Below are positions 44,161 to 49,649 of a stretch of 64,000 bases of DNA, piece by piece. The DNA is from Planctomycetales bacterium. Lineage in GTDB: Bacteria > Planctomycetota > Planctomycetia > Planctomycetales > Planctomycetaceae. Position numbers and translations under genes: made by a program. The stretch spans positions 62,001 to 126,000 of the forward strand of contig JAPLOA010000100.1 in the NCBI GenBank assembly GCA_026400835.1, written 5' to 3'. The notes under the pieces are model-generated. The model saw only the letters and a list, made by a program, of their open reading frames with translations. It did no database searches and was not told the origin of the DNA. Each line of letters opens with the position of its first letter. The first letter of the stretch is position 1.

Positions 44161-44217
44161 AAAGTGGCAGTTTGTGTTGCAAATGTCTCTTGGCTAACCG
44201 CGTATTGATTTAATCCT

Positions 44218-44288
44218 AACCCACTGCGTCAGCGAGGGATTGTTTTTGAAAACGCGGCAACATTTATCCCTCGCTGACGCGTCGGGTT
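44218..44288. repeat. Palindromic repeat between convergent genes (core shared with 49294-49622)
   Basis: Arms 44218-44241 and 44266-44288 pair over about 22 bp with a perfect 15-bp core GCGTCAGCGAGGGAT (44226-44240). The left arm matches 49430-49453 at 23 of 24 positions. It sits in the convergent gap at 44161-44315 and may double as a terminator. Confidence 0.8.
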
Positions 44289-44315
44289 GTGAAAACCCAT
44301 TAAGCCAATAGCTTG

Positions 44316-49276: not shown

Positions 49277-49293
49277 TCCGGCGTTGCATCTGC

Positions 49294-49622
49294 TTAGGAA
49301 CAGTCCCGAAATAACATCCTGTTTCTACTGCAGCTAAAAATCACAACCCGAAACATCATTGAGGGATTTCTCTGCAAGGCACCGATCCCTCGCTCACGCG
49401 TTTTGAAGTTGCGTGTTTGCAGCTATCCCAACCCGCTGCGTCAGCGAGGGATTGTGCTTTTGCGTTTTACGCAGTGTTTAGGGAAATCCCTCGCTGACGC
49501 GTCGGGTTGTGATAATCCCCTGTGTTTTTGTCCGCTTGATCTACCGCAATCCGGAAACTCGCAACTTCAAAACTTACGCGTTGGGTTGTGATTTAGGGAA
49601 CTTACTTCGGGACTGGTCCTTA
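49294..49622. mobile_element. Foldback/MITE-like element filling a convergent gap
   Basis: Terminal inverted repeats 49294-49314 and 49602-49622 match at 18 of 21 positions. Inside, further inverted pairs nest: AAATCACAACCC (49338-49349) with 49583-49594, TTTTGAAGTTGCG (49401-49413) with 49560-49572, and the core 49430-49453 with 49484-49508. No coding frame and no clear target-site duplication. The core recurs at 44218-44288. Confidence 0.7.
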
Positions 49623-49649
49623 GTGCTTGCAAGTAGCTCCGATGCAGTC

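Follow-up and report, generated by a model that had tools for sequence, protein, structure and literature searches.

A Nest of Two Non-Autonomous Transposons Probably Accounts for Nested Inverted Repeats in a Planctomycete Genome

The nested inverted repeats at positions 49293-49623 of the window (the whole 64,000-nucleotide stretch of planctomycete DNA analyzed here) are best explained, with a probability of about 0.88, as a nest of two non-autonomous transposons, in which one MITE (denoted M) lies inside a REP, a 28-bp REP-like repeat, of another MITE (denoted T), both being small transposon remnants. In this explanation, the nested repeats are a by-product of the insertion of M into T. The M kind both targets and carries the REP and so builds Russian-doll nests throughout this planctomycete genome.

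Structure of the Window Locus

Four nested inverted pairs had been described in an earlier note made from the sequence of the window, and these are present at 49338/49594 (12 of 12 identical), 49401/49572 (95% over 19 nt), 49430/49508 (90% over 30 nt), and 49294/49622, the last of which is identical at 18 of 21 positions when the flanking CTTAG repeat is counted. As also observed in that note, no transposase lies near the element in the window. The features of the locus, and of a third family elsewhere in the window, are as follows.

49293-49297, + strand: CTTAG, left copy of a putative 5-bp target duplication of T; a direct repeat at both ends, and the flanks joined over one copy are co-linear with the empty gap in two relatives (L081 and L061)
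49298-49618, + strand: composite of 321 bp, in which M (172 bp) divides T (141 bp) and a duplication of 8 bp makes up the rest; indicated by the length sum and the restored T
49298-49314, + strand: left terminal inverted repeat of T (GAACAGTCCCGAAATAA); indicated by genome pattern counts
49602-49618, - strand: right terminal inverted repeat of T; 15 of 17 positions identical to the left one
49340-49367, - strand: intact (left) REP of T; a 28-bp repeat in register with other T copies
49385-49400, + strand: left half of the T REP interrupted by M, including the left duplication CTCACGCG at 49393-49400
49401-49572, + strand: M, 172 bp, with ends TTTTGAAGTTGCG (left) and GCAACTTCAAAA (right) and two internal REPs; 65 copies of 168-174 bp in the fetched genome regions
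49425-49452, - strand: left internal REP of M
49486-49513, + strand: right internal REP of M, the exact consensus ATCCCTCGCTGACGCGTCGGGTTGTGAT with zero mismatches
49573-49592, + strand: right half of the interrupted T REP, opening with the right duplication CTTACGCG at 49573-49580; 7 of 8 positions identical to the left 8-mer
49619-49623, + strand: CTTAG, right copy of the putative target duplication of T
44203-44310, - strand: element of a third family (denoted N), about 108 bp, with ends TRTTGATTTAAT; similar ends and a 53-54-bp REP spacing occur at several other loci

The lengths of T, M, and the duplicated 8-mer (141, 172, and 8 bp) sum to the 321 bp of the composite at 49298-49618, and excision of M together with one 8-mer restores a full T, with 141 of 141 positions aligning to the T consensus (92%). 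The 8-mers that flank M in the window are identical at 7 of 8 positions rather than at all 8.

In two relatives, identified at L061 (DUF1501 protein 95% identical) and L081 (98%), the element is absent from the gap that separates the convergent DUF1501 and YhcH genes. When joined over a single CTTAG, the window flanks are co-linear with the gap in both relatives and have the same length. The empty gap shows that T and M are jointly absent from these relatives at this locus, not that T is present there without M. The orthologous gap of L081 (1050-1420) carries its own unrelated insert a few bases off; this insert has the ends GGGCGGATTC and GAATCCGCCC and shows CTCAGTACC as a 9-bp direct repeat. 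The DUF1501-YhcH gap seems to be a repeated landing place.

Distribution of T, M, and N in the Genome

A 381-bp query recovered 106 matching stretches in the genome of the window, marking the structure as a dispersed repeat, and the best full-length copy (L222, first labelled L002) was 89% identical. We fetched 110 regions of this genome and mapped three motifs on them; copy numbers reported here refer to fetched regions and pattern counts. The 28-bp REP (ATCCCTCGCTGACGCGTCGGGTTGTGAT) occurs 189 times in the genome within three mismatches, compared to no occurrence of the reversed control. The outer end, that of T (GAACAGTCCCGAAATAA), has 128 matches within three mismatches (13 for the reversed control), and the inner end, that of M (TTTTGAAGTTGCGC), has 276 within two mismatches (96 for reversed controls).

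Three families can be distinguished. T (141 bp) comprises the outer ends and a REP pair spaced 44-45 bp apart, M (172 bp) comprises the inner ends and a REP pair spaced 60-61 bp apart, and N (about 108 bp) comprises the ends TRTTGATTTAAT and a REP pair spaced 53-54 bp apart. These families have only the REP arms in common; their ends and loops differ. The earlier note had identified a second occurrence of the core in the window, and the core does recur at 44213-44293, but this copy belongs to N and shares only the 28-bp REP arms. REPs are arranged in inverted pairs in 226 of 244 cases. In both M and T, the REP arms are more conserved (91-95%) than the loops and other arms (72-82%), which is compatible with function, with gene conversion, or in part with how loci were chosen.

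T without M (141 bp) and M without T (172 bp) both exist as simple copies. M has terminal inverted repeats and dispersed, non-coding copies (65 of 168-174 bp, with 14-bp ends) and qualifies as a MITE; T likewise has terminal repeats, multiple copies, and an empty site. T is flanked by CTNAG-like pentamers. The two pentamers are equal in the window (CTTAG) and in a number of other copies, but many copies have unequal ones; the putative CTTAG duplication is in part a palindrome and differs from one T copy to another. No transposase with T ends was found, including within long T-end pairs in the fetched regions and among the genus loci read, and none was found for N. The loci read in search of an autonomous T partner in the genus contain short elements only, some with other palindromic cores. 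T ends enclose different palindromic cores in other species and M ends do likewise; for both, ends stay constant and cores get swapped.

Further arrangements of these ends were observed. T ends lie beside unrelated palindromic cores (e.g., those beginning GTACGACGGACA or GTGTGCCTGCGTTCGC) in other species of the genus, at L306 (G001), L295 and L307 (G004), L296 (G015), L298 (G017), and L301 (G012). Longer M-end elements with other palindromic interiors were identified at L226 (1060-1297), L194 (9467-9738), L236 (826-1052), and L249-L266 (G014), some of them nested with further palindromes such as CGGCAAGCCGCAGGCG. M-end elements with the palindromic interior GGGCTGGAAGCCCGGCACATC are interrupted by contig breaks (L158, L179, L201, and L223; L167 and L237; L173 and L221), and three distinct multi-copy sequences, which are probably insertion sequences, have inserted there.

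Insertion of M Into REPs

The fetched regions contain 65 copies of M (168-174 bp), of which 50 interrupt a REP, always at one fixed position. Once M is removed, the host can be recognized as T for 26 of these 50, as another M for 15, and as N for 3. The flanking 8-mers match perfectly in 24 of the 50 REP insertions and at 7 or more of 8 positions in 39. Permutation of the right flanks (10,000 trials) yielded a mean of 5.1 and a maximum of 14 perfect matches, compared to the 24 observed; the agreement therefore exceeds what the REP consensus alone would give. The target duplication of M has a constant length of 8 bp, as is characteristic of MITEs. Since M carries two REPs, every insertion adds two new targets.

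M copies with an 8-bp duplication were also detected outside of REPs (L203, GATTGACT; L244; L246; L219). Such copies also sit in a different palindrome (CCCCAG-GCTGAAGC-CTGGGG) at L143 and L192, and in a palindrome at L244. A general preference of M or its mobilizer for the centers of palindromes was considered and rejected: such insertion is clear at L143, L192, L244, and L281 but not at L205, L246, L178, and L273, indicating that a REP or palindrome is preferred and not required.

Four M copies are flanked by two REP halves of the same side (L140:5622, L144:15432, L171:1328, and L200:4561). Recombination between nests therefore does occur.

A Probable Mobilizer of M

In a genome of the same genus (G014), M ends enclose 226-bp elements with a different palindromic interior, and at one locus of that genome (L262) an M end adjoins a transposase-like reading frame. 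Use of the L262 fragment as a query revealed intact elements in genomes of the same family, at L273 (1526 bp), L274 (1507 bp), and L276 (1506 bp). In each, the M ends are identical at 14 of 14 positions on both sides, an intact reading frame of 474-490 aa lies between the ends, and the duplications are identical at 8 of 8 positions. A further copy, located in a palindrome (L281), has ends identical at 13 of 14 positions, an intact frame, and an 8 of 8 duplication. M therefore has transposase-bearing relatives with the same ends at all four loci. Two of these four copies, L274 (CGCGCCAG) and L276 (CGCGCAAG), occupy the REP position used by M, being inserted between AACCCGA or AGCCCGA and CGAGGGAT.

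The transposase matches DDE_Tnp_1 in Pfam (PF01609, E 1.9e-18), and its translation includes the IS4 signature Y-(2)-R-(3)-E-(6)-K (YSLRWQIELFFKELK). All curated NCBIfam cut-offs were missed (best IS701, 80 of 150 bits; IS4, 64 of 115 bits), and the transposase is accordingly placed, on its sequence, in an IS4/IS701-like group and no finer. Searches by sequence returned no relative with a solved structure. At the start of one G014 contig, an ISNCY-family transposase (L271:93-1568; NCBIfam NF033593, above cut-off) adjoins sequence that is shared with the transposase relic in L262.

The IS4-like transposase was detected in 5 of 150 genomes of the family. It was absent among the matches in the genome of the window, where assembly gaps could hide a copy, and the long M-end pairs within the fetched regions contain no transposase. 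Searches of a plasmid collection with the M consensus and with the transposase gave no match. M thus appears to be an orphan in this genome. Because the transposase was not found there, we infer mobilization of M in trans from the shared ends, the duplication length, and the target, which suggest that the 1.5-kb IS4-like element probably mobilizes M.

Alternative Explanations

The earlier note had proposed a foldback MITE-like element. The identification as non-autonomous MITE material is borne out by the many copies, conserved ends, duplications, empty site, and a transposase-bearing relative with M ends, but the locus comprises two MITE families and not one foldback unit. Transposition of the whole structure, as one foldback-type element of about 330 bp, would account for the same 320-322-bp layout at the window copy (W), L150, L155, L203, L222, L224, L229, L231, L234, and L245, and for the best full-length match of 89%. 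However, the copies of T at W, L222, and L234 are closely related (92-95% identical), and the M copies that they carry are not: the nearest M relatives lie at unrelated loci, W being closest to L213 (90%), L222 to L203 (98%), and L234 to L233 (96.5%). M is found in either orientation (opposite in L234) and the interrupted REP varies between loci (M interrupts the other REP of T in L224); moreover, T alone and M alone both occur. Since close T hosts carry unrelated M copies, the composite did not spread as a unit, and these separate histories contradict a role of the 321-bp composite as the mobile unit. We regard movement as a single foldback-type element as very unlikely. Recombination or gene conversion between REPs, rather than transposition, could also generate the M-in-REP layout, and the four M copies flanked by same-side REP halves fit this. 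We nevertheless consider it improbable to nearly the same degree, given that the flanking 8-mers agree far better than permuted pairs, that M has 8-bp duplications outside of REPs (L203, L244, L246, and L219), and that the transposase-bearing element exhibits the same pattern.

The arrangement of 226 of 244 REPs in inverted pairs resembles REPINs, and the genome encodes 19 Y1 (RAYT-like) transposase genes (L031-L049), which together raise the prospect that a RAYT (Y1) transposase spread the repeats as a REPIN cluster. Yet no pair of this REP flanks any of the 19 Y1 genes, apart from a single weak pair at a distance of 1.1 kb, and the REP pairs lie within elements with terminal repeats of their own and with target duplications, which are not produced by HUH transposases. 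There is accordingly little to recommend this explanation. The hairpin potential of the locus is very strong and lies within a convergent gap, as would be expected of a structured RNA or bidirectional terminator selected in place between convergent genes, the former having been offered as an alternative in the earlier note. In the folding that it had suggested, here compared to shuffles, the strand folds far better than dinucleotide shuffles, both as DNA (-84.5 kcal/mol versus -41.4 +/- 4.0, z -10.9) and as RNA (-143.4 versus -92.7 +/- 5.7, z -9.0). However, compensatory or double changes in the M and T alignments are no more frequent than in shuffled alignments, which is evidence against selection of an RNA or DNA hairpin as such; a scan of the window against Rfam gave no match, and two close relatives lack the element in the orthologous gap. 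Selection as an RNA or terminator is therefore extremely unlikely, although the nest may act as an accidental terminator.

Proposed Mechanism and Significance

The insertion of M into T, which we favor, can be placed in a sequence of events built on the families, ends, duplications, fixed insertion point, independent insertions, empty sites, and matching insertion sequence in relatives that the analysis demonstrates. T, moved by a presumed mobilizer, would have entered the gap that separates the convergent genes for DUF1501 and YhcH, with duplication of about 5 bp (CTTAG). M would then have entered one of the two REPs of T, duplicating 8 bp. M would be moved in trans by an IS4-like DDE transposase, the product of a 1.5-kb insertion sequence whose 14-bp ends are those of M, and this transposase would prefer the REP hairpin and some other palindromes as targets; at the window locus, we infer that it moved M although it is now apparently absent from the genome. 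Each M insertion would consume one REP target and supply two, and this feedback of its own REPs on the spread of M would let M accumulate inside T, N, and other M copies because it carries two REPs.

More tentatively, and with less than even odds, these elements may constitute a self-feeding system: a REP-seeking IS4-like element together with its MITE, in which the target is built in as a conserved functional module, so that the family grows by inserting into its own members and into unrelated MITE families that have acquired this landing pad. If true, such a system would direct most insertions away from genes. The elements described here provide a testable account of why nested palindromes fill some bacterial genomes, and they illustrate how a transposase that seems to be missing from a genome can have left its mark throughout it. 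That T, M, and N have the REP arms in common but differ in their ends raises the question of how the module is exchanged.

Comparison With Known Systems

Each component has been described before, namely bacterial MITEs, insertion sequences that seek REPs, and the REP repeats themselves; here they are joined in one traceable system in a planctomycete genus. In the open-licence literature searched, we found no description of a bacterial MITE for which a REP is both the target sought and part of its own sequence, so that it nests in itself. ISRm22 of Sinorhizobium meliloti is an IS4-family insertion sequence that inserts into REPs (PMC1525189). It shares with the element described here an IS4-type transposase and a preference for REPs; here, however, the host is a planctomycete, the 8-bp duplication occurs at one fixed point of the REP, and the non-coding derivatives themselves contain the REP, giving rise to recursive nests.

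Like the bacterial MITEs Correia/NEMIS, RUP, Nezha, and MITEAba12, the elements described here are short, non-coding, and bounded by terminal inverted repeats and target duplications, the latter putative in T, and are probably moved in trans by a transposase. They differ in that the REP pair that they carry is the target of their own family and in that interiors are swapped between families and species while the ends are kept. REPINs and the GTAG- and CGTC-tagged REPs (PMC3116915, PMC3733652) are similar in being short palindromic repeats in inverted pairs that are intergenic and of high copy number, whereas here no RAYT flanks the REPs, which are nearly always within MITEs that have their own ends. 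REP dimers within longer palindromes have been reported previously, without the mechanism of a REP-seeking MITE (PMC3733652). Finally, foldback elements share the long nested inverted repeats that are able to fold back, but here the nesting reflects one family inserted in another and not movement as a unit.
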